Below, piece after piece: positions 43,641-53,988 of a stretch of 62,571 nt of DNA. The number at the start of each line of letters is the position of its first letter. Positions within the stretch are counted from its first letter, which is position 1. The notes beneath the pieces are model-generated. The model had not been told where the DNA came from. It saw nothing but the letters and a program-made list of their open reading frames with translations, and ran no database searches. This DNA is from Desulfobacteraceae bacterium. GTDB lineage: Bacteria > Desulfobacterota > Desulfobacteria > Desulfobacterales > SURF-7. The stretch spans positions 1 to 62,571 of the forward strand of contig QZKS01000030.1 of assembly GCA_003599865.1 (NCBI GenBank). The letters are read 5' to 3'. The position numbers and the translations under genes were made by a program.

Positions 43641-43676
43641 GAAAAAGCCGGGCAACCCTTATCCAGTCAGCCCGGC
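43641..43676 (-). terminator. Rho-independent terminator of the sensor/MFS operon
   Basis: On the minus strand GCCGGGC (43676-43670) pairs with GCCCGGC (43653-43647), followed by TTTTTC. It lies about 130 bases after the stop of the TPR gene, so it should end the five-gene transcript and insulate the 5'-nucleotidase gene. Confidence 0.65.
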
Positions 43677-43805: not shown

Positions 43806-44927
43806 TTATTTACAGAATCCTTTGCTTGTAAGATAGTTCATGGCCTTGCAAAGCCCTAAATCGCAGGCTTTTTTCGCATTGCCGCAGATTCGTTCCAGCT
43901 CATTCAATTCCAGAAGAATGCTTTCCCGGTCTTGCATGTTTTGGGAGAGTTCCGGAGAAAGCCGGAGCACCTGGCTGAAATCGTTCAAGGCCCTTTGATA
44001 CTGATACAGATTTTTATATGCTGCGCCCCGGAAAAGATAGGTATACACCTTGTCCGGCTGAATCCGTATCGCCTGATTAAAATCCTCTATGGCTTTCCAG
44101 TATTCCGCAAGATGATAGTTGGCGATTCCCCGGTTGTTGTAGGCAGCCGCGTAATCGGCATCCATCCGGATGGCTGCGTCATAGTCTTTGATGGCGCGGT
44201 TTATCCGGTCCAGGTTGAAATATGCCGTCCCCCGGTTGTTGTAGGCCTTGGGATTGGATTTGTCGAGCTGAAGACTTTTGTCCAGGTATTCGACAGCCTT
44301 GTATGGATCGGCATATTTGCCGTTCTGCCACAGACCAACGGCTTTGCGATTCCATTCCGCGGCGGTCAGAGCCTTGATGGTTGTACTGTATTGCTTTTCC
44401 AGCTCCTCTTTTTGAGGAGGAACTGCCTGGCCGGGCTGCTGCTGAAGCGCCTGGTTCTGTTTTTCCAGGTTCCGGATGATGTCGAGCAGTTCTACTTCCC
44501 GCTGCTGAATTTCATGATATTTTTCGATCAGGGTCTGATCTTCGGCCAATGTCTGCATCTTTTTTTCAAGCGTGGTGCTGTCCACTTCCAGTTGCAGGAC
44601 AAGGATGATGCCGAAGCCGTCTTCCGTGGCGTAATTTTTTTGGGAAACGATTTCCGACCGGACAATTCCGGAAGCAACTGCCGTGATTTCATCTTTTTTC
44701 AGCCTGAAGTTTTCGACAACCGTCAGGGATTCAATATAGGTTCCGGCTTTTTCCAGGGCTTCCAGCTTGGCTTTGGCAATGGCAGCGATTCGGGCATCAT
44801 CCGGCGACTGGCTTCCGGAAAAGGGTTGGTCAACTTCCTGAGAAAACTGTTTCCGTTCCGCGTGAGATGCCGTGGCCAACAGGAAGAAAAGGGCGGTGAG
44901 CAGAACTGTTTTTTGAATCCATACCAT
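43806..44927 (-). CDS. Secreted FlgT-N-like / TPR protein
   Basis: About 373 residues with a signal peptide (VLLTALFFLLATASHA). Residues ~25-125 resemble the LPP20/FlgT N-terminal fold (IAAIAKAKLEALEKAGTYIE, then TAVASGIVRSEIVSQK). A coiled coil follows (~130-170), then at least four TPR units (NPKAYNNRGTAYFNLDRINR, YAAAYNNRGIANYHLAEYWK and relatives), so it is probably a periplasmic scaffold. I favour the ATG at 44927; a TTG at 44933 sits 2 codons upstream. It is the last gene of the five-gene operon and begins within 10 bases of the MFS gene's stop. Confidence 0.85.
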   Translation of the reverse strand: MVWIQKTVLLTALFFLLATASHAERKQFSQEVDQPFSGSQSPDDARIAAIAKAKLEALEKAGTYIESLTVVENFRLKKDEITAVASGIVRSEIVSQKNYATEDGFGIILVLQLEVDSTTLEKKMQTLAEDQTLIEKYHEIQQREVELLDIIRNLEKQNQALQQQPGQAVPPQKEELEKQYSTTIKALTAAEWNRKAVGLWQNGKYADPYKAVEYLDKSLQLDKSNPKAYNNRGTAYFNLDRINRAIKDYDAAIRMDADYAAAYNNRGIANYHLAEYWKAIEDFNQAIRIQPDKVYTYLFRGAAYKNLYQYQRALNDFSQVLRLSPELSQNMQDRESILLELNELERICGNAKKACDLGLCKAMNYLTSKGFCK

Positions 44928-44933
44928 AAACAA

Positions 44934-47009
44934 TCAATCCTTATTTTCTTTTTTGTCTGCAAATACCATTACAAACAGAATGCTGGAGACGGCCGTATAC
45001 GCGCCGATCAGGGCAAGTGATCCGGTATATCCGAACCGGGATATTAGCGCACCTGACAGAACCGGTGCAAGAACATTTCCAATTCTTTCCGCCTGGCGGT
45101 AAATGCCGAGTCCCGGCCCAAGACCGGCTTGGTTTACAGACGGAAGCTGTGATGCGAGCTTTACCTGGTTGGAGACGGAAAAAGCATGGGAAAAACCAAG
45201 AAGGACAATCCCCAGTGCAATCCAGAACACACCCGGAAAAAAGTAACAGGGAAGGAGGGCGATGCCGGAAAAGAGACCGCCCCGGAAAATGAACGGTTTC
45301 GGACTGGGAAACCGGTCTGTCCATTTTGCGATGCCCTGGCTGAAAATAATCATCACCAGGCTGTACAGCATGATATAACGTCCGATATCCGATTGCCTGC
45401 TGCCGAGGGATTCCAGAAAAAGCGGAGCGATATAATAAATAAATCCGATCAGGCAGATTTTATTGGGAATGCTTTGGAAAAAAACCAGTGCTGAAAAATT
45501 CCGGTCTGAAAACAGGGTGACGAGGTTTTGGATAAAAGATGTCCGGGAGGAGCCGGTTTCCGGTTTTGAAACACGCTTGGCGGATGTTCCGGATGAGATG
45601 AACATCAGAAAAAGGGTGGAGCTGACGGCAATGGCAGCGCCGATCAGAAACAGCAAGCGGAATCCGATCCGGTCCGACAGCATCCCTCCGATGGCGGAAC
45701 CGCATAGGGTTCCCCCGTAAAAAGCGGATAAAAAGATCGCCATTCCTTCTGCCCGGTTATCGGCTGTTGTCTGCTGTATAATGAACATCTGGGCGGTCAT
45801 GAATACCGTACCAAAGCCAAATCCGGCAATGGCACGATACACAACCAGGGACAAAATGGTTTCCGCCATACCGCTCAATAAGAGTCCTGCAGCGCTGATG
45901 ACGGCTCCAAGCAAAAATGATTTCCGGTGACCGATTTTTTCCGCCAGATATCCTCCCATCGGAAGGCTGATGGTGACCAGCAGCATGAAGGACGAGATCG
46001 GCAGCCCCATGGCAATATCCCTGGATAGATAGGGCATCGGCCGATACAGTTGTCCGGCGAAAATCGGGAGAAAAGAAATGCTGAGTGATTCGGAAAAAAC
46101 GAACAGGAACAGTGCCGGCCGGATCAATGATGAGGATGACACGCGGATGGCTTGATCCGGGCCGTTCCGGTTCCATCCGAAGCGGCTGATCATGGAAATG
46201 ACGCTTGATGCAAGGCTTTTCATCCGCTCGCTGTTCCGGTTTGTTTCCGGTTGCAGCAGAAAAAGGGGAGAAGAGAGTTGTATGATCTTTTTCCATTTTT
46301 TGCTGAATTCGCGGTGTATTTTTTCAAAATAACGGATCAGGACATCCAGAAAATCGATATGGGTCCGGGTAATGGACGCATCCAGCGCTCCGTTTGTTGT
46401 CACTTCCCGGATTTCAAAAGAGGCCTGTTGGACAGGGATGGTAAAGGTCCATGCAACCATAAAGAAGAGAAAGTCAAGGATGGCGAGAATGGAAATCAGG
46501 ATGATGGTGCCCGTGTCAAGGGCGATTTCATGGACATGCCGGTTTATCCGCTCCGGATCGATACCGAGCATCAATACACCCTGGGGCCGGCTGTCTTTCC
46601 CGGTCAGCGGAAATGAAATCCGGAAGTCGCCTGTTTGACCGTCACCGGGGTTTTCCGGCGGCTGCCCGGATTGACCGGCTTCCGGATAAAATGATTGCTG
46701 GTCGCAATAATAGAGAAGATTTCCGGATAGGTCATGGATGGCGATAAAAGAGATCTCCTGGGTTTCGCTGATGATTTTCCGGAGCAGTGCTTTCAGACCG
46801 AAGAATTTTTGAATGGATACTCCTTTTTGCAGAATATCTTCCAGGTTGATCCGGAGGCTGTTTCCTACGGTATTGAGGTTGGACCGGACCGCCGCAAGAT
46901 AGCTGGTTTTAAAGGACGTTACATTGATATGGAAGTAGATGAGCTGGGAAGCGAGCAGCGTTCCCAGAATGATGAGGATGATTTTTCGATCCGGGCTAAT
47001 CCATTTCAT
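44934..47009 (-). CDS. Fusion of a periplasmic-sensor/HAMP-like module to an MFS transporter
   Basis: A 691-residue inner-membrane protein. Residues ~9-27 are TM1, ~28-165 a periplasmic sensor-like domain (ISFIAIHDLSGNLLYY is single-Cache/PAS-like), ~168-190 TM2, then a HAMP-like linker. From ~290 a full 12-span MFS domain follows, with the loop motif GGYLAEKIGHRKSFLLG between spans 2 and 3. I start at the ATG at 47009, which overlaps the previous gene by 14 bases; an upstream extension shows no extra domain. A transporter fused to a receptor input domain is rare. Ligand and substrate are unknown. Confidence 0.85.
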   Translation of the reverse strand: MKWISPDRKIILIILGTLLASQLIYFHINVTSFKTSYLAAVRSNLNTVGNSLRINLEDILQKGVSIQKFFGLKALLRKIISETQEISFIAIHDLSGNLLYYCDQQSFYPEAGQSGQPPENPGDGQTGDFRISFPLTGKDSRPQGVLMLGIDPERINRHVHEIALDTGTIILISILAILDFLFFMVAWTFTIPVQQASFEIREVTTNGALDASITRTHIDFLDVLIRYFEKIHREFSKKWKKIIQLSSPLFLLQPETNRNSERMKSLASSVISMISRFGWNRNGPDQAIRVSSSSLIRPALFLFVFSESLSISFLPIFAGQLYRPMPYLSRDIAMGLPISSFMLLVTISLPMGGYLAEKIGHRKSFLLGAVISAAGLLLSGMAETILSLVVYRAIAGFGFGTVFMTAQMFIIQQTTADNRAEGMAIFLSAFYGGTLCGSAIGGMLSDRIGFRLLFLIGAAIAVSSTLFLMFISSGTSAKRVSKPETGSSRTSFIQNLVTLFSDRNFSALVFFQSIPNKICLIGFIYYIAPLFLESLGSRQSDIGRYIMLYSLVMIIFSQGIAKWTDRFPSPKPFIFRGGLFSGIALLPCYFFPGVFWIALGIVLLGFSHAFSVSNQVKLASQLPSVNQAGLGPGLGIYRQAERIGNVLAPVLSGALISRFGYTGSLALIGAYTAVSSILFVMVFADKKENKD

Positions 47010-47946
47010 CCTGCTGTCCTTTGAGTGCAGTCTGCATCCGGTGGATGGCATCGGCGGTTTCATGATCCGGATTCAGTTCGCTCCATTGCCGGAGCGCATG
47101 ACGGAGATTGTCTTCCGCTTCACGGGTTTTTGCCTGAAATTCTGCAATCAGGTCATGCAGAACCAGCAGACTGTTTCCGCCGGACGTGCTGAAGGTTCGG
47201 ACAGGAGCGTTTCGGTCTTGCAGATCATGGTTGAGGCGTTCCGCCAGCCGGCGGGACGGACGGGTCAAAAACAGATGAATCATGACCGCCATTACCAGTG
47301 CAGTTACGACCAGTGACAGAAGCAGTTTTTTCCCTGTGCCGCTGATCAGGATTTCTTTTTGGCGGTCCAGTATGGATTGGGAAAAGATGAGCGCAAGTAT
47401 TCCTGATTGGCTGTCCAGTGCAGATGAAATGGGGAAGAGGATATAATACCTGCCGTTATAAAGCGGCGTGCTTGAGCCGGTTTTGCGAAAATCGGAAATG
47501 GATCGGATGGGGAGATCGATCTTCTCTTTTGTCGTATCCGCCGGAAATGTCTTCCGGATCGGACCCTGCCGGGATGCATCGCCGGGTCCGGATGGTTTTG
47601 CCCTTCCGGAAGAGAAGAACAGTGCACCCTGATCGTCAAAGATCATGACTTCATCGATATCTTCGGTCAGTTGATAAACCGGTGCGATGAGATTGTCCAT
47701 GCCGGTAAAGTGATCCAGGCTTTTTCCGAATTTAAGCGCCGATTCGATCCTTCTTTTCAGGTCCTTTCCCAGGATTTCATATTTGGTGGTCAGGGTTTTC
47801 AGGAGGAGGGATTCAAATGTCGACACACTGAGGAGTGTTCCCAGGATCTGGGAGACAACCAGCAGGACGATGGCCATGAGAACAATTTTCCAGGTCGTGT
47901 TCAGCCGCACCCGGCGTACAGGAATGAATGGTTCGGGGTCAGCCAT
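46996..47946 (-). CDS. Membrane sensor protein with periplasmic domain and HAMP-like/coiled-coil output
   Basis: A 316-residue inner-membrane protein. TM1 is ~18-40, the periplasmic domain ~41-205 (IDEVMIFDDQGALFFSSG is Cache-like, then YYILFPISSALDSQSGILAL), TM2 ~207-228. A short HAMP-like and coiled-coil cytoplasmic tail ends the protein. No kinase, cyclase or GGDEF output follows. The layout parallels the first 280 residues of the next gene, the sensor-MFS fusion, so the two may form a heteromer. It overlaps neighbours by 8 and 14 bases. Confidence 0.8.
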   Translation of the reverse strand: MADPEPFIPVRRVRLNTTWKIVLMAIVLLVVSQILGTLLSVSTFESLLLKTLTTKYEILGKDLKRRIESALKFGKSLDHFTGMDNLIAPVYQLTEDIDEVMIFDDQGALFFSSGRAKPSGPGDASRQGPIRKTFPADTTKEKIDLPIRSISDFRKTGSSTPLYNGRYYILFPISSALDSQSGILALIFSQSILDRQKEILISGTGKKLLLSLVVTALVMAVMIHLFLTRPSRRLAERLNHDLQDRNAPVRTFSTSGGNSLLVLHDLIAEFQAKTREAEDNLRHALRQWSELNPDHETADAIHRMQTALKGQQDEMD

Positions 47947-48742
47947 GTTTATGGATTCCTGCTACGGGACTTTTGGAGAAATGAATTTCGTATCGTTCCG
48001 GAATTCTGCTGATATGATGAGGGTCACAGATTTCATCCACGGGCGTGTGCACGCCCGGGATCTCACAAATCCGGAACCCATGGTATCCTTCCCGGAGAAT
48101 TTTTTCCTGCTTCTGAAAATCCGTAAGCCCGGCGACCTGATCCGTCTCAGGTAATGAGGAAGGGGTCGATTTCAGATTCCGATACACAATATAGCGCAGC
48201 TTGCCGCCATACTTGTACTTCAGTCCGACAATGATAAAGCCGCTCTTCAGAAGGGTATTCACGTTCCAGTAATTATAGGGGGAAACGGTTGCCAGAAGGT
48301 GGTCGAATCGTTCCTGCTCCCGGATCAGACGGATTGCCTGACAGTTCATCTTATAGGCCAGGTTGTTTCCCCGATACAGGGGATGAACGCAAACCATTTG
48401 AAAATTGACAGATCTTCTGCATTCTTCCTTTGAAAAACCGATATCCGATCCCAGATTCCATTCCTGATCCGTCGCGTCCGGGTAGTATACGTTTCGGAAT
48501 GCCACCAGTTCATTTTCAACCAGTACGCCGATGATAAATCCTTTTTCCGAAAGATGGGAACGCATAAACTCGGGCGGAAATGGCTGGAGCATATCTTTCC
48601 GGCTCAGTCTCTCTATAATCATGTACTGAAGACGCATCACTTCAGCAAGGCAGTTTTCATCCAGAACCTTCATGACGGCTGAAAGCTCCGGTGAGAGCTG
48701 GTTTCCTATTCTTCTGCGGATTTTTCCTGTTTCCACGATCAT
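47939..48742 (-). CDS. GNAT-fold acetyltransferase
   Basis: A 267-residue cytoplasmic protein with a central GNAT domain. The acetyl-CoA loop is in VCVHPLYRGNNLAYKM (~136-151), preceded by a beta-strand; LLATVSPYNYWNVNTLLKSG (~170-189) is the typical beta5-alpha4 region where substrates sit. The N-terminal ~60 residues are helical. The C-terminal ~60 residues are unassigned. The acetylated substrate is unknown; it could be a small molecule handled by the transporter or a protein of the same operon. It overlaps the upstream gene by 4 bases. Confidence 0.82.
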   Translation of the reverse strand: MIVETGKIRRRIGNQLSPELSAVMKVLDENCLAEVMRLQYMIIERLSRKDMLQPFPPEFMRSHLSEKGFIIGVLVENELVAFRNVYYPDATDQEWNLGSDIGFSKEECRRSVNFQMVCVHPLYRGNNLAYKMNCQAIRLIREQERFDHLLATVSPYNYWNVNTLLKSGFIIVGLKYKYGGKLRYIVYRNLKSTPSSLPETDQVAGLTDFQKQEKILREGYHGFRICEIPGVHTPVDEICDPHHISRIPERYEIHFSKSPVAGIHKHG

Positions 48743-49914
48743 TTTTCCGATTTCACCGTCTCAATGGTTTCATAAATTTCATCCGCAGCTCCCAGAATAT
48801 CCACAGAGGGGTCATATCCGATCATCTGTGCCGTTTTCAGGTTGATGGCGATTCGGGGCGGGTCCTCGAACACCTGGTCGAGGTCCCGGGGTTTGGCGCC
48901 ATGGAAAATCCGGGCAATGGTCTTGGCATGAAACAGGGCAATATATTTGAAATCGGCTCTGGCAATACTCATGAGCACGCCATGTTTGACTTCCCTGGAC
49001 CCGACCTGGGAGAACGTGGGAATTTTCCGTTCGTAAAAAGGTTTCAGGAGGACCGGCATGTTTTGCAATGACACGCCGCGATGAACCGTAATGTAGCAGG
49101 CGTCGACTTTTGGTGCGAGTTGCCGATGGCAGGCCTGTACGGCCTTTTGCGCCTCCTCTTCGGACACATTGGAAAAGGGCGCATGGCAGGACACGATTTC
49201 AAAATCAAGTTCTTTGGCCACTTTTTCCACATCGTCAATGGCGGCATAGGTTTTTCCGTCCGGTGTATCGTGTTCGTAGACAATGCCCAGTTTCCGGAAT
49301 CCGAAAATACTGTGGAAGATCCGGATCTGACGTTCGTATCGTGTGGGATCGACCCGGGCATTCACATGATCAAGGCCCGAGTCGTCAACGCCCTTGATGA
49401 TGCCGGACCGGACCGGATTGCTGGAGGAGAGAACAATGGTCGGAACGCTGTGTTCATTGGTGGCCAGATCCTGGCCGGCCTTTGTGCCCATGGCCAGCAT
49501 GAGATCGATGTCCTTCCGCTGATTCAGCCTGACAAGAATTTCCGTCCGGGTTTTTTTTCGGAGGGCATCATCCCAATTGCATGACCAGTAGGCATCTGCC
49601 GGAAATTCAATATACCGGCTTTTGGCGTTTTTGGACAGCGCTTTCCACAGCTTCCGGGTATCGTTCTCATCCTGCTGTTGCGGCAGGTCTATGGATTCCA
49701 TCCAGCCCAGCTCGACAAATGCCGCAGTCAGGGCGCGGAGATTCATGGGGTAGTTGATGTACGGGCCTGCTTCCAGGTAACCGATGCGCCATTTCCGACC
49801 CTGGTTTGAGATGGGTGCCGTCGAATATTTTTCCGCCTCGGCAGACCGGCAGGAAGGGCTCATCAGCACAACCACAAGAAAGGAAAGCAGCAGTCGATTG
49901 AAAATCATTTGCAT
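48739..49914 (-). CDS. ABC_sub_bind-type periplasmic binding protein
   Basis: A 391-residue protein with a signal peptide (RLLLSFLVVVLMSPSCRSAEA). The fold is type I periplasmic binding protein of the ABC_sub_bind family: WRIGYLEAGPYINYP (~40), DIDLMLAMGTKAGQDLAT (~135), RKLGIVYEHDTPDGKTYAAI (~205) and the closing DLDQVFEDPPRIAINLKTAQ. Members usually feed ABC importers, but here no ATPase or permease follows; the next genes are GNAT, membrane sensors and MFS. It probably captures a ligand for the sensors. It is the first gene of the operon. Confidence 0.88.
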   Translation of the reverse strand: MQMIFNRLLLSFLVVVLMSPSCRSAEAEKYSTAPISNQGRKWRIGYLEAGPYINYPMNLRALTAAFVELGWMESIDLPQQQDENDTRKLWKALSKNAKSRYIEFPADAYWSCNWDDALRKKTRTEILVRLNQRKDIDLMLAMGTKAGQDLATNEHSVPTIVLSSSNPVRSGIIKGVDDSGLDHVNARVDPTRYERQIRIFHSIFGFRKLGIVYEHDTPDGKTYAAIDDVEKVAKELDFEIVSCHAPFSNVSEEEAQKAVQACHRQLAPKVDACYITVHRGVSLQNMPVLLKPFYERKIPTFSQVGSREVKHGVLMSIARADFKYIALFHAKTIARIFHGAKPRDLDQVFEDPPRIAINLKTAQMIGYDPSVDILGAADEIYETIETVKSEK

Positions 49915-50045: not shown

Positions 50046-52253
50046 TTATCCTCCGCATCCCAGGGTCGGGTCCTGAACGACCGGATTTCGGCGGTTGCGC
50101 TTCTTTTTCCGGATCTGGCACAGCAGGGTTTTGTAAACCGGAAAACCGGATATCTCGTCAAACTGTGCCAGATCGGTAATCATATTCACATTGGCTTCCT
50201 TCCATTCATCCGTACCTAAGGGGCCGCCGCCGCCGACCGGGGCGTACACGAAGCCATGCATGATCTTGTCCGTCACATACGCCCGCATTTTTATTGAACC
50301 TCTGACGGTTTTGATGCTGATCACATCCCCGGTTTTGATGTCGCGGTCTTCGGCGTCCTTATGGTTCATTTGAACGGCTGGATAGGGGTATCGCTTGATG
50401 AAGCCGGGAATGGCCCGCAGGCTGGATTTCATGTCCGGCTTGAACGGCCCGGTGCCCAGCACCAGCGGATAGGTTTCAAACAATTCGGGATTGCTGACCG
50501 CCGTCTCATCCGACTCTTCATATCGGGGAATGCCGCTGTATCCATATTGCTCAAGAATCGTGGATTTGATCTCAAACTTGCCGGAGGGGGTTTCAAAGCC
50601 GGGTTTTCCATCCTGACGGAGCATTCCTTTTTCCCATTTGCGGTATTCCATGGGAACGGTCTCTTTTCGGAGAACATGTTTCGGGGCGTTTTGCAGGTCT
50701 TCCATCGTAAATCCGGAGTCGCTCAGGATGTAGTCCAGGAGTTCCTCCCGGGTCTGCGGGTACAGGTTTCCGTATCCGAGTTTTTCCGCCAGTTCCGACA
50801 GGATCTGACGGTTCGGTTTTGCCTCTCCGACCGGATCGATCATTTTTTCCCGCAGGCGAAGGCAGGTTCCATAGTAGCAGTAAGACTCCTGTTCAAAAGC
50901 GGTTGTGGCCGGAAGGACGATATCGGCGTAAGAGGCATCCTGCGTGAGCTGTAAGTCGATGCATACCAGAAATTCAAGAGTTTCCAGGGCTTTTTTCCAG
51001 ATATGGGAGGCCGGCCAGGAGGTCAGAATGGAAGCTCCCTGGATGATCATGGCCCTGATTCGGTAAGGATCTCCATCAATGATCGATCCGGGAAGGATAT
51101 TGGCGTGGGGTTCGCCGCCGCAGAAATGGGAGTATACCGGGAAGCGCCCTTTGCCGATGGATTTTTCAAATCCGGGTGTTGCAATCTGCCGGCCTGTCGG
51201 CAGCGGAAAGCGGTTTTCGCTTCTTAAAAAACACCGTCCGCCTTCCACATCCAGTTGTCCGGCCAGTGCCCAGAGAACCATGACCGCCCGGATATTCTGC
51301 ACGCCGCTCTTGGTATATTCCAGGCCCGTATACATCACATAGCTTGCCCCCTCCGCTTCTGCAATGCCTTGGGCCAGATATTCGATTGTATGTACCGGAA
51401 TGCCGGTGGTGTTGGAAACATATTCGGGTGTAAACGCTTTTACGTATTCGGCGAACTCGTCAAACCCGGTTGTCCAGTTTTCCGCAAAATCGGCATCGTA
51501 GCGATGGTCCCGGATCAGAATATGGGACAACCCGAGCGCCAGTGCGCCGTCGGAACCGGGTCGGATGGTGATCCATCGGCTGCCGGGAAGATCCGCGGCT
51601 TTTGTTTTTCGGGGGTCGATGACGATGATTTCGGCTCCTTCCTCTGCCGCCGCCTTCAGGCGCTGAAACATTTCCGGAGGAGTCGAGGTGGAGGGATCGG
51701 TTCCCCAGACCAGAATCAGATCGGAATTGTCCACATCGGAAAACATATCAATATGAAGGCATCCCATGGTCAGCTTGGGTGCCAGAACGCCCAGGGCCGT
51801 ATAGCAGGGGGCCCCGACGCCAAAGGTGTTGGGGGAGCCGAATGGAAACAGGACACTGGATGCCAGATAGATTTCCGAACCTTTGAGCTGGAAAATATCT
51901 TTAAAGGATCTTTCATAGGTGCCGGTTCCGGTATAGATTCCGACGGTTTCCGGACCGTGTTGGTCTTTGAGCGCATTCAGTTTCCGAACCATGATATCAT
52001 AGGCCTCATCCCAGGACACCGGTTCAAACGAATGGGTTCCTTTGGGGCCGGTTCTTTTCAGCGGACGGGTCAGCCGATGCCCGCCATAGATGATTTCTTT
52101 TGCACTGGCGGAAATGGGACACAGGACTTTTCCGGCCGGAGCATCCGGGTCCGGTTCCAGACGGTCTATCCGGTTTTCATCATCAAAGGTAACGATAACG
52201 CCGCAGCCGGGGCTGTGAAAGCACAATCCGCATATGCCGTGTTTTTGTCTCAA
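50046..52253 (-). CDS. Molybdopterin oxidoreductase (DMSO-reductase superfamily)
   Basis: A 735-residue bis-MGD enzyme. The N-terminal [4Fe-4S] ligands are in CGLCFHSPGCG and the later Cys of KVLCPIS (~8-50). The probable metal-ligand Cys is in FGVGAPCYTALG (~150), after GSPN, as in thiosulfate-reductase and acetylene-hydratase-like members. The C-terminal molydop_binding domain begins near 610. There is no Tat signal, so it is cytoplasmic, and no electron-transfer or membrane subunit is adjacent. The reaction is unknown. The TTG start lies 8 bases after the methyltransferase stop, with AAAGGTAG as ribosome site. Confidence 0.9.
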   Translation of the reverse strand: MRQKHGICGLCFHSPGCGVIVTFDDENRIDRLEPDPDAPAGKVLCPISASAKEIIYGGHRLTRPLKRTGPKGTHSFEPVSWDEAYDIMVRKLNALKDQHGPETVGIYTGTGTYERSFKDIFQLKGSEIYLASSVLFPFGSPNTFGVGAPCYTALGVLAPKLTMGCLHIDMFSDVDNSDLILVWGTDPSTSTPPEMFQRLKAAAEEGAEIIVIDPRKTKAADLPGSRWITIRPGSDGALALGLSHILIRDHRYDADFAENWTTGFDEFAEYVKAFTPEYVSNTTGIPVHTIEYLAQGIAEAEGASYVMYTGLEYTKSGVQNIRAVMVLWALAGQLDVEGGRCFLRSENRFPLPTGRQIATPGFEKSIGKGRFPVYSHFCGGEPHANILPGSIIDGDPYRIRAMIIQGASILTSWPASHIWKKALETLEFLVCIDLQLTQDASYADIVLPATTAFEQESYCYYGTCLRLREKMIDPVGEAKPNRQILSELAEKLGYGNLYPQTREELLDYILSDSGFTMEDLQNAPKHVLRKETVPMEYRKWEKGMLRQDGKPGFETPSGKFEIKSTILEQYGYSGIPRYEESDETAVSNPELFETYPLVLGTGPFKPDMKSSLRAIPGFIKRYPYPAVQMNHKDAEDRDIKTGDVISIKTVRGSIKMRAYVTDKIMHGFVYAPVGGGGPLGTDEWKEANVNMITDLAQFDEISGFPVYKTLLCQIRKKKRNRRNPVVQDPTLGCGG

Positions 52254-53586: not shown

Positions 53587-53988
53587 ATGCTCAAATTTCA
53601 GGCCATAGAAGAGAAACGACTGCTGATCATCAATTGTCCGCCGGAGCTGGATTATGTGTATGCCTCAAACATATTATCCAAGATCTATTTTGAAAAAGAA
53701 GGCAAGTATTCTTCATACAACAGTTTCGTGAACCTGTCTTCCCTTGAAAAGAACAATCTCAACTTAAGCGCCTACATGGAATCCATGAGGGTCTATTTTT
53801 CGATGAAGCCCAAAGACATCCCTGTCCGGATTGCGGTTCTGGTCCGTCCGGAATTCATCGATTCCATTTCCATGGTTCACAAAGTGACCTCGGAATTCAA
53901 CAACATCTCCCTGTTGATCTCCACAAAGCCCGAAGAGTGTGCATCGTTTCTGAATGTCGATCCGGAAGCCATTTTGGGTTCGTCATAG
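53587..53988 (+). CDS. Small STAS/SpoIIAA-like protein, second
   Basis: A 133-residue soluble protein. The layout resembles the one at 20265: an N-terminal strand pair (FQAIEEKRLLIINCPPEL), a middle FVNLSSLEKNN, then VRIAVLVRPEF, an amphipathic helix and ISLLISTKPEECASFLN. A STAS/SpoIIAA-like fold is likely, but the function is unknown. A start at ATG 53587 is supported by an AGGT-type site. The next gene on the strand is 215 bases away. Confidence 0.55.
   Translation: MLKFQAIEEKRLLIINCPPELDYVYASNILSKIYFEKEGKYSSYNSFVNLSSLEKNNLNLSAYMESMRVYFSMKPKDIPVRIAVLVRPEFIDSISMVHKVTSEFNNISLLISTKPEECASFLNVDPEAILGSS

Follow-up and report, generated by a model that had tools for sequence, protein, structure and literature searches.

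A five-gene operon joining an orphan substrate-binding protein and a GNAT to a Cache-sensor/MFS fusion: a possible cassette for self-sensing export

Our question was what an ABC_sub_bind receptor, an acyltransferase, two membrane sensors, one of them fused to an MFS transporter, and a TPR protein might do together. Genes predicted to encode these proteins are neighbours in a 62,571-nucleotide stretch of DNA from a Desulfobacteraceae bacterium (hereafter, the window). All five are on the reverse strand, in the order A-B-C-D-E: a substrate-binding protein (SBP), a GNAT, a sensor, a sensor/MFS fusion and a TPR protein. Genes A/B, B/C and C/D overlap by 4, 8 and 14 bases, and the ATG of gene E is 6 bases past the stop codon of gene D. 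These distances agree with a sequence-only reading made earlier, which gave the same overlaps and placed the last gene within 10 bases. Note that gene D could have a longer start at 47063, and gene E a TTG start at 44933. Downstream of gene E, on the same strand, the hairpin GCCGGGC...GCCCGGC is followed by T5 (positions 43676 to 43642). This region folds with a z-score of -3.89, a value equalled by none of 200 shuffles, and is absent from the output of a consensus terminator scan. It is a likely intrinsic terminator that probably ends the transcription unit. A promoter scan found six sites against a shuffle mean of 7.7, and so no excess. We conclude that the five-gene operon is real.

Gene A (48739 to 49914, reverse strand) encodes an orphan periplasmic SBP of the ABC_sub_bind family (Pfam PF04392; 55.2 bits, cut-off 25.9), with a hydrophobic, signal-like N terminus. 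The nearest solved structures, by profile search, are 3lkv, 6hni and 3lft. The best NCBIfam match is TrpX (NF041285), at 52.2 bits, far below the equivalog cut-off of 390. As claimed earlier, the binding protein comes without an ABC transporter: a scan of eleven window proteins between 37 and 54 kb revealed neither an ABC permease nor an ABC ATPase. The same reading had accepted that a classical ABC partner, normally replacing the MFS in relatives, would count against it. Proteins matching an ABC signature motif turned up within five genes of the SBP at 9 of 68 loci. Several are plainly not importers: inspection of the first residues by eye points to ABC-F-like, UvrA-like and exporter-like proteins among them, and a profile identifies one as a TPR protein. 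The single clear adjacent ABC importer was a Liv-type ATPase pair at locus L075 (one of the two was scanned). Hence, an ABC permease/ATPase is not the usual substitute for the MFS.

Gene B (47939 to 48742, reverse strand) encodes a 267-residue protein that scores 15.1 bits against Acetyltransf_1, below the cut-off of 20.7. Eleven of 12 family members match this profile at E 0.1, and 6 of 10 relatives scanned singly pass the cut-off, which places the family in the GNAT superfamily by way of its relatives. The blocks CVHPxxxG and ATVSPxN are invariant in all 12 rows. The FeeM profile (PF21926) matched one member, at L018, below its cut-off of 27 (19.7 bits, E 8e-4), and did not match the window protein. 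Judged on sequence, gene B encodes a divergent GNAT-fold acyltransferase of no specific family. Gene E (43806 to 44927, reverse strand) has a hydrophobic, signal-like segment at residues 1-19 and matches TPR_1 in three stretches (76.9 bits).

The 316-residue product of gene C (46996 to 47946, reverse strand) has no match in Pfam, and no output domain was found in it. Its hydrophobic segments are at 21-39 and 208-226. An AlphaFold (AF2) model, of low confidence (mean pLDDT 68), predicts a single Cache domain, with a long helix and a mixed sheet, between two TM helices, followed by a coiled coil. The model matches the WalK ectodomain 4ywz with Z 11.3 over 137 residues, and WalK and chemoreceptor Cache domains with Z about 9-11. 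By Foldseek on its own, the model had two matches at E 0.001. These results bear out the proposal of a membrane sensor lacking enzymatic output. Gene D (44934 to 47009, reverse strand; 691 residues) has hydrophobic segments at 10-28 and 168-186. Its predicted Cache-like sensor matches dCache_1 weakly (E 0.0019, under the cut-off) and is matched by a profile built from gene C. The MFS part scores 155.5 bits against MFS_1 (cut-off 33.4; best stretch 317-649 in a 709-residue reading). In relatives, C-like and D-like sensors share one chain with the MFS; such chains, with two Cache-like units and about 760-920 residues, occur at many loci. This strengthens the idea that the two sensors form a pair.

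Is the arrangement conserved? A search for related loci with the single GNAT protein found none, and one with the GNAT alignment found 10. The order A-B-C-D-E occurs at L023 and L025 (one genus) and at L024 (another genus), A-B-C-D at L020 and L021, B-C-D-E at a contig end at L028, and a rearranged version at L026. L022 and L027 have kinases between the SBP and GNAT genes, with no C or D seen in the stretch examined. Homologues of gene E are found at L023, L024, L025, L026 and L028, and the TPR protein is restricted to part of the GNAT-type loci. SBPs from three syntenic relatives are 62-76% identical to that of gene A. The sequence-only reading had proposed a search for this gene order, with random contexts in relatives as the result that would speak against it. 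The contexts are not random: SBP-GNAT-sensor-sensor/MFS recurs in other genera, and the TPR gene in some. Its claim of a system is therefore supported, and the wiring that it drew between the parts is, for us too, a proposal.

At other loci the GNAT position is taken by epimerases, racemases, a GCS2-type ligase or an aminoacyl-tRNA-synthetase (aaRS)-like protein. The SBP search listed 78 matches, of which 71 lie within the stretches examined (the window, three others and 60 more); left out were G506:C1:3231570, G598:C107, G586:C76, G516:C1:2191020, two at G468:C166, and G029:C250. For an 81-locus count, L014, L015, L059, L061, L062 and L018 were removed as duplicates of L023, L024, L026, L025, L021 and L132, respectively. 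A 64-locus test centred on the SBP kept the first five, whose twins are outside that set. In this test, a sensor-MFS gene was within 6 kb of the SBP at 28 of 64 loci. The enzyme set comprised GNAT, DapF-like, ornithine/alanine racemase-like, GCS2-type ligase, aaRS-like and AstA proteins. A member was present at 26 of the 28 loci with the sensor-MFS and 3 of the 36 without (Fisher p 2e-12), though the test is partly circular and p optimistic, because the set was picked after inspection of the neighbourhoods and several loci share a genus or genome. Without GNAT loci, the same comparison gave 20 of 22 against 2 of 35. Conversely, 11 of 16 phylum genomes with a sensor-MFS have an SBP within 5 kb, where counts are lower bounds because scoring took in two and four candidates per genome and used a cut-off of 1e-60. 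The other five loci have no such SBP, and at L119 and L120 this is not obviously due to contig ends. Across 38 loci, SBP distances rise with MFS distances (r 0.76, a value reached in none of 2000 permutations), in part through shared ancestry. At L080, a DapF-like enzyme and the sensor-MFS form a single 1212-residue ORF. At the level of sequence, the recurring theme is a partnership between an orphan ABC_sub_bind receptor, a Cache-sensor/MFS fusion and a predicted amino-acid enzyme.

We also placed the SBPs in a midpoint-rooted tree of 84 rows, leaving out the SBP of L022 and the split SBP of L021. MFS-linked SBPs are not one clade; the label MFS_other requires at least 14 changes and MFS_GNAT 6, yet the labels cluster more than shuffled ones do. 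A supported group (100/99) holds the window SBP and 11 other rows. Nine of its 12 rows are from GNAT loci (the window, L013, L020, L021, L023, L024, L025 and two of L026), and the other three, L060, L063 and L064, have no MFS seen. L132 and L027 are also GNAT loci, but their SBPs lie elsewhere in the tree.

What might such a set of genes achieve? The reading we favour, tentatively and with close to even chances of being right, is that this operon represents one form of a conserved cassette for the synthesis, export and monitoring of a small molecule derived from an amino acid. We infer the ligand class, the direction of export, the gating and the relay from SBP to sensor as follows. In the cytoplasm, GNAT B would acylate an amino acid or amine, and the MFS part of D would export the product. 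Outside, the exported molecule would be read by a sensor pair, made up of the Cache part of D and the stand-alone Cache subunit C, and this pair would open or close the MFS. The soluble receptor A would bind the same molecule and present it to the Cache sensors; in relatives, homologues of A may present ligand to kinases or chemoreceptors. A broader claim, possible and rather doubtful, is that this represents a new class of self-sensing export, comprising a swappable amino-acid-tailoring enzyme (GNAT, racemase, epimerase, or a GCS2-type or class-I-aaRS-like ligase), a Cache-gated MFS and an orphan ABC_sub_bind reporter. Here, the SBP would report the outside level to the transporter, and other copies would report to histidine or Ser/Thr kinases and chemoreceptors. 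The opening abstract of PMC7584622 offers a precedent for a Cache domain that senses a signal made by the cell itself. Each part comes from a known superfamily, and the novelty appears to lie in the combination. No described system of this composition had been known to the earlier reader; likewise, we found no description of the whole gene set among the titles and abstract starts of open-licence PMC papers. If the self-sensing export reading is true, the locus encodes a type of transporter in which the protein's own extracellular sensor, together with a loose binding protein, controls the flux, and sulfate-reducing bacteria and their relatives would have a further family of possible chemical signals. 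Enzyme swapping around one transporter would then offer a direct route to predicting what each version exports.

The transporter could instead face the other way. In such sensor-gated uptake, which we judge unlikely, the SBP would capture a nutrient or signal resembling an amino acid and deliver it to the Cache sensors, the MFS would import it, and processing inside the cell would fall to the GNAT or racemase. ABC_sub_bind proteins are normally uptake receptors, and TrpX is the best, if distant, NCBIfam match of gene A. Furthermore, racemases, DapF-like epimerases and AstA, which adjoins L091, could convert imported amino acids; AstA there, and racemases generally, can have a catabolic role. 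However, ligases and acyl/formyl transferases, which are not catabolic, account for several of the replacement enzymes. The GCS2 ligase, formyltransferase, GNAT and class I LysRS-like protein are predicted users of ATP or an activated group, and such spending would fit a product for export better than the breakdown of an import. The LysRS-like assignment concerns protein X526. This is not a diverged GCS2 ligase (hhalign probability 0.1%), has no match to PDB sequences, and gave nothing by Foldseek at E 0.001. In a second structure comparison, class I LysRS 1irx reached Z 12.7 (next row 6.8), which counters an unrecognised fold; X526 is a putative catalyst resembling class I LysRS. That an enzyme acts on the cargo, as first suggested for the GNAT, gains from the other amino-acid enzymes in the same place, and the GNAT itself may take this step. 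The MFS also argues against uptake, by its motif C. The MFS sequence motifs A and B are conserved across the family, as are most glycines of motif C, which in DHA drug:H+ antiporters reads GxxxGPxxGG. Most of this exporter-like glycine spacing is retained. The proline, however, is absent from every one of the 37 rows (of 38 aligned) that have residues at this place, so the DHA motif is not matched. Finally, we know of no arrangement in which MFS uptake depends on an SBP.

The MFS might transport nothing. As a 'transceptor' like UhpC or CbrA, it would form a sensory complex with the SBP and gene C, with output on other proteins; we consider such pure signalling decidedly improbable. It would suit the missing enzymatic output of gene C, and other SBP copies adjoin histidine kinases, Ser/Thr kinases (with WD40) or chemoreceptors (MCPs) at many loci. 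Because of this company, the ABC_sub_bind protein of this family looks like a receptor. A dCache-type histidine kinase is also within 6 kb of the MFS at eight loci, and the kinases at L022 and L027 fit the same idea. Against it, gene D carries no known signalling output domain, and its conserved motifs are as expected of a working transporter. A point against the favoured reading is that kinase-type matches are not clearly tied to a missing MFS: they lie within 6 kb at 15 of the 36 MFS-free loci and at 7 of the 28 MFS-bearing ones. Neither a sensor-MFS nor a kinase-type profile was seen at 24 of 81 SBP loci. Those 24 include MCP and kinase cases (L022, L070, L093, L104 and L106), and an SBP-kinase ORF exists among the loci of this SBP family.

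There is a slim chance that a metallophore/opine pathway is at work, making a metal chelator for secretion. Staphylopine (Cnt) clusters have a DapF-like racemase, an MFS exporter and an SBP together, and some relatives join a DapF-like or ornithine-racemase-like gene to an MFS and an SBP. However, the five window genes include no match to a racemase, a nicotianamine-synthase-like protein or an opine dehydrogenase, no ABC importer was found, and the Cache sensors would be left unexplained. A chance neighbourhood of unrelated genes is scarcely credible: the version with a GNAT occurs in few genomes (3 of 395 in the phylum; 4 of 59 relatives, including its own genome), but conserved order, fusions and enrichment reject it.

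How does the favoured cassette, for making, exporting and monitoring a small molecule, compare with known systems? Gene A belongs to the Pfam family of TrpX, from the TrpXYZ tryptophan ABC transporter, but falls far short of the TrpX equivalog score, has no permease or ATPase found beside it, and is from a family that keeps company with sensor-MFS proteins, kinases or MCPs. The FeeM N-acyl amino acid synthase applies a GNAT-type fold to amino acids, as gene B may; the likeness extends to the weak match at L018, under the cut-off, but not to the window protein. Compared with staphylopine clusters, the combination of DapF-like enzyme, MFS and SBP is the same in some relatives, whereas the Cache sensors and, in relatives, the aaRS-like protein are different. 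LuxP-LuxQ is an autoinducer receptor pair in which a periplasmic binding protein reports to a membrane sensor, as gene A would, and here too the ligand may be self-made. However, the SBP family is another one, and LuxQ has kinase output, whereas gene C has no Pfam domain and the sensor of gene D is fused to, and ends in, the MFS. UhpC, a transporter-type sensor, and CbrA share with gene D a transporter fold tied to sensing. As described in the opening abstract of PMC7096432, CbrA has an SLC5-like domain joined to a kinase; in gene D no kinase is attached, and an outside Cache sensor instead precedes the MFS.

Five minus-strand genes of the window, from 49914 to 43806, form a compact operon. 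In order, they encode an orphan ABC_sub_bind receptor (A, hereafter SBP), a GNAT (B), a membrane sensor (C), a sensor joined to an MFS transporter (D), and a TPR protein whose N terminus looks signal-like (E). The A/B, B/C, and C/D overlaps are 4, 8, and 14 bases, and E starts 6 bases after D. The operon proposed by the sequence-only reading is thus confirmed, and the overlaps make co-transcription of A to E very likely. Beyond E is a candidate terminator, comprising a hairpin and T run (43676-43642, minus strand). The surrounding stretch folds better than 200 of 200 shuffles (z -3.89); the hairpin is absent from the output of a consensus terminator scan. Probably, this is the end of the operon. 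A molybdopterin oxidoreductase gene (50046-52253, minus strand) lies 131 bases upstream of A. In L013, the sole same-genus relative with the operon, such a gene is also immediately upstream (87% identical). A homologous ORF occurs in one other SBP neighbourhood (L089). Because no homologue was found beside the remaining GNAT-type loci, we left this gene out of the system. Elsewhere in the window, 53587-53988 (plus strand) encodes a 133-aa protein with no Pfam match.

Protein A matches PF04392 in Pfam (55 bits), has 3lkv, 6hni, and 3lft as solved relatives by profile, and misses the TrpX equivalog cut-off by far. The window's own B protein is below the GNAT profile cut-off. Among its family, 11 of 12 members match GNAT at E 0.1, and 6 of 10 scanned singly pass the cut-off; by profile, the family is GNAT. 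No Pfam domain was found in C. Its predicted layout (mean pLDDT 68) is a TM segment, long helix, mixed sheet, second TM segment, and coiled coil. At E <=0.001, Foldseek matched it to two models, each of a Cache-containing receptor. In a second structural comparison, the rows were mostly Cache ectodomains; C scored Z 11.3 against WalK 4ywz (137 residues, 3.1 A), 10.6 against 3lid, and about 9-11 against amino-acid chemoreceptors. D matches MFS_1 (155 bits) and a profile made from C matches its N-terminal part. Hence, the C and D sensors are related. In E, a hydrophobic N terminus precedes TPR repeats.

The GNAT is present in 4 of 59 relatives (own genome counted), in 3 of 395 genomes of the phylum Desulfobacterota, and at 10 loci in genome_contigs. 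With duplicates out, 11 further GNAT-type loci remain, the window not counted (L013, L020-L028, and L132). All share the locus with an SBP except L028, which begins at a contig end. Both C and D occur in seven (L020, L021, L023-L026, and L028). A double-sensor MFS takes their place in L132, and the L013 sequence stops inside C. No MFS was found within the fetched stretches of L022 and L027; between SBP and GNAT, the former has a Ser/Thr kinase with WD40 and the latter two histidine kinases. The complete A-B-C-D-E order recurs in L023 and L025, of one genus, and in L024. E was found in these three, L026, and L028; none was seen in L020 or L021. In L132, from a distant phylum member, GNAT, SBP, sensor-MFS, and DapF-like genes share one locus, joining the GNAT-type loci to those of the second arrangement described next.

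Searched with an SBP profile at E 1e-60, the order Desulfobacterales (242 genomes) gave 78 matches spread over 45 genomes; neighbourhoods were examined for 71. In a common second arrangement, the SBP gene often faces an MFS gene whose product has about 760-920 aa and two Cache-like units. The chain runs C-like unit, D-like unit, MFS, and we take it as a natural C+D fusion. The fusion is evidence that C and D belong together as a natural pair. The two parts remain separate genes in L091 and L096. Amino-acid enzymes adjoin the two-unit MFS in these loci. Beside sensor-MFS genes are DapF-like proteins (TIGR00652, up to 111 bits, just below the 114.65 cut-off), ornithine-racemase-like proteins (NF040742, 220 bits; cut-off 480), true alanine racemase (TIGR00492, 232 bits, above the cut-off of 168), GCS2-type ligases, and, at one locus, AstA. 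One phylum family (L121, L122, L124, and L125) has convergent SBP and sensor-MFS genes together with a formyltransferase-like one, a further amine-modifying enzyme; one of these four similar loci was scanned (L121 protein). At L080:641-4279 (plus strand), a DapF-like epimerase and sensor-MFS form a single 1212-aa ORF. At a contig end, the ORF L128:104-2422 begins with a partial SBP and runs on as sensor-MFS; this is either a natural fusion or an assembly fault.

Many sensor-MFS genes are followed by X526, whose members are about 490-575 aa long (L083:9175-10752, minus strand, plus 14 related ORFs). Members adjoin racemases and sensor-MFS. Three members scanned had no Pfam match (L083, L068, and L082) and three no NCBIfam match (L068, L083, and L090). 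The predicted model is confident (mean pLDDT 91). Foldseek found no significant match; in a second comparison, the model aligned with class I lysyl-tRNA synthetase 1irx (Z 12.7, 286 residues, 4.3 A), then with other class I synthetases and MshC (Z about 5-7). In the family alignment, an invariant HxG follows a strand and resembles the HIGH motif. Judged by its model, X526 is perhaps an amino-acid-activating ligase.

Do these genes travel together? Among 44 sensor-MFS loci, gathered from several baits with duplicates removed, 38 have an SBP within 5 kb and 34 have one or more of the set's enzymes (GNAT 9, DapF 11, ornithine/alanine racemase-like 8, Alr 3, GCS2 6, X526 13, AstA 1). The SBP-baited and MFS-baited sets are cleaner. 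In the former, 28 of 64 loci have an MFS within 6 kb. An enzyme is present in 26/28 of these and in 3/36 without MFS; the enrichment is descriptive and its p of 2e-12 optimistic, because the enzyme list was drawn post hoc from the same neighbourhoods and several loci share a genus or genome. Excluding GNAT loci, the figures are 20/22 and 2/35. In the MFS-baited set, 16 of 395 phylum genomes have a sensor-MFS, with an SBP within 5 kb in 11. As for the others, none was seen in L119 or L120, a weaker ABC_sub_bind-like gene (75 bits) adjoins the MFS in L123, at a contig end, and L127 and L128 are at contig ends. SBP and MFS distances correlate (r 0.76; 0/2000 permutations as high); common descent could by itself have the same effect. 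We conclude that, as gene neighbourhoods, SBP, MFS, and amino-acid enzyme travel together.

The SBP also keeps other company. Of 81 SBP loci, the fetched stretch includes a sensor-MFS in 38; another 19 have a kinase-type profile match somewhere within it, and 24 show neither. Kinase-type matches within 6 kb of the SBP (15/36 loci without MFS, 7/28 with) prove little alone about a receptor role. By Pfam, SBP genes adjoin histidine kinases (L027, L064, L069, L070, L091, and L103), MCPs (L093, L104, and L106), and Ser/Thr kinases with WD40 repeats (L021:2302-7956 and L022:3600-8008). A second SBP in L021 is split over two frames, and the L022 SBP ORF continues into kinase sequence. In eight loci, a histidine kinase of one dCache family is found no more than 6 kb from the MFS (L068, domains confirmed; L126, a weak match; L077, L080, L084, L130, L131, and L132). 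Dedicated importers beside the SBP are rare. At L075:3699-6481, the SBP directly follows Liv-type ABC ATPase genes, possibly an ancestral or converted uptake context. A ligand receptor reporting to different membrane outputs fits best; in the window, the output would be the C-D pair. In excerpts of the sources, stimulation of receptors by solute-binding proteins is an accepted idea (PMC9602780) and a dCache domain can act as an autoinducer receptor (PMC7584622).

The sequence-only reading had an SBP without ABC transporter relay a periplasmic ligand, via paired sensors, to gate the MFS. Its observation is stronger than could then be known, since the operon is part of a wider family with recognisable logic; the mechanism stays a proposal. 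We tentatively favour, at a little under even chances, an arrangement in which the amino-acid enzyme would make a cargo, the MFS would export it, and the Cache domains and SBP would read its level outside. Two points favour export: a number of the partner enzymes would use up ATP or activated groups, and the motif C glycines are largely kept. Against export count the motif C proline, absent throughout the sensor-MFS family, and the racemases or AstA, which could serve uptake; we consider sensor-gated uptake unlikely. Signalling without transport is more improbable still.

For a Cache-MFS fusion with SBP and amino-acid enzymes, our searches of open-licence PMC papers turned up no title or abstract opening that describes one. 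LuxP-LuxQ is a binding protein plus membrane sensor, and A with its sensors is somewhat alike; the operon differs in the defining features of that system. Some relatives resemble staphylopine clusters, again with different defining features. As described in an excerpt of PMC7096432, CbrA likewise has a transporter fold in sensing, and its defining features set it apart from the operon.
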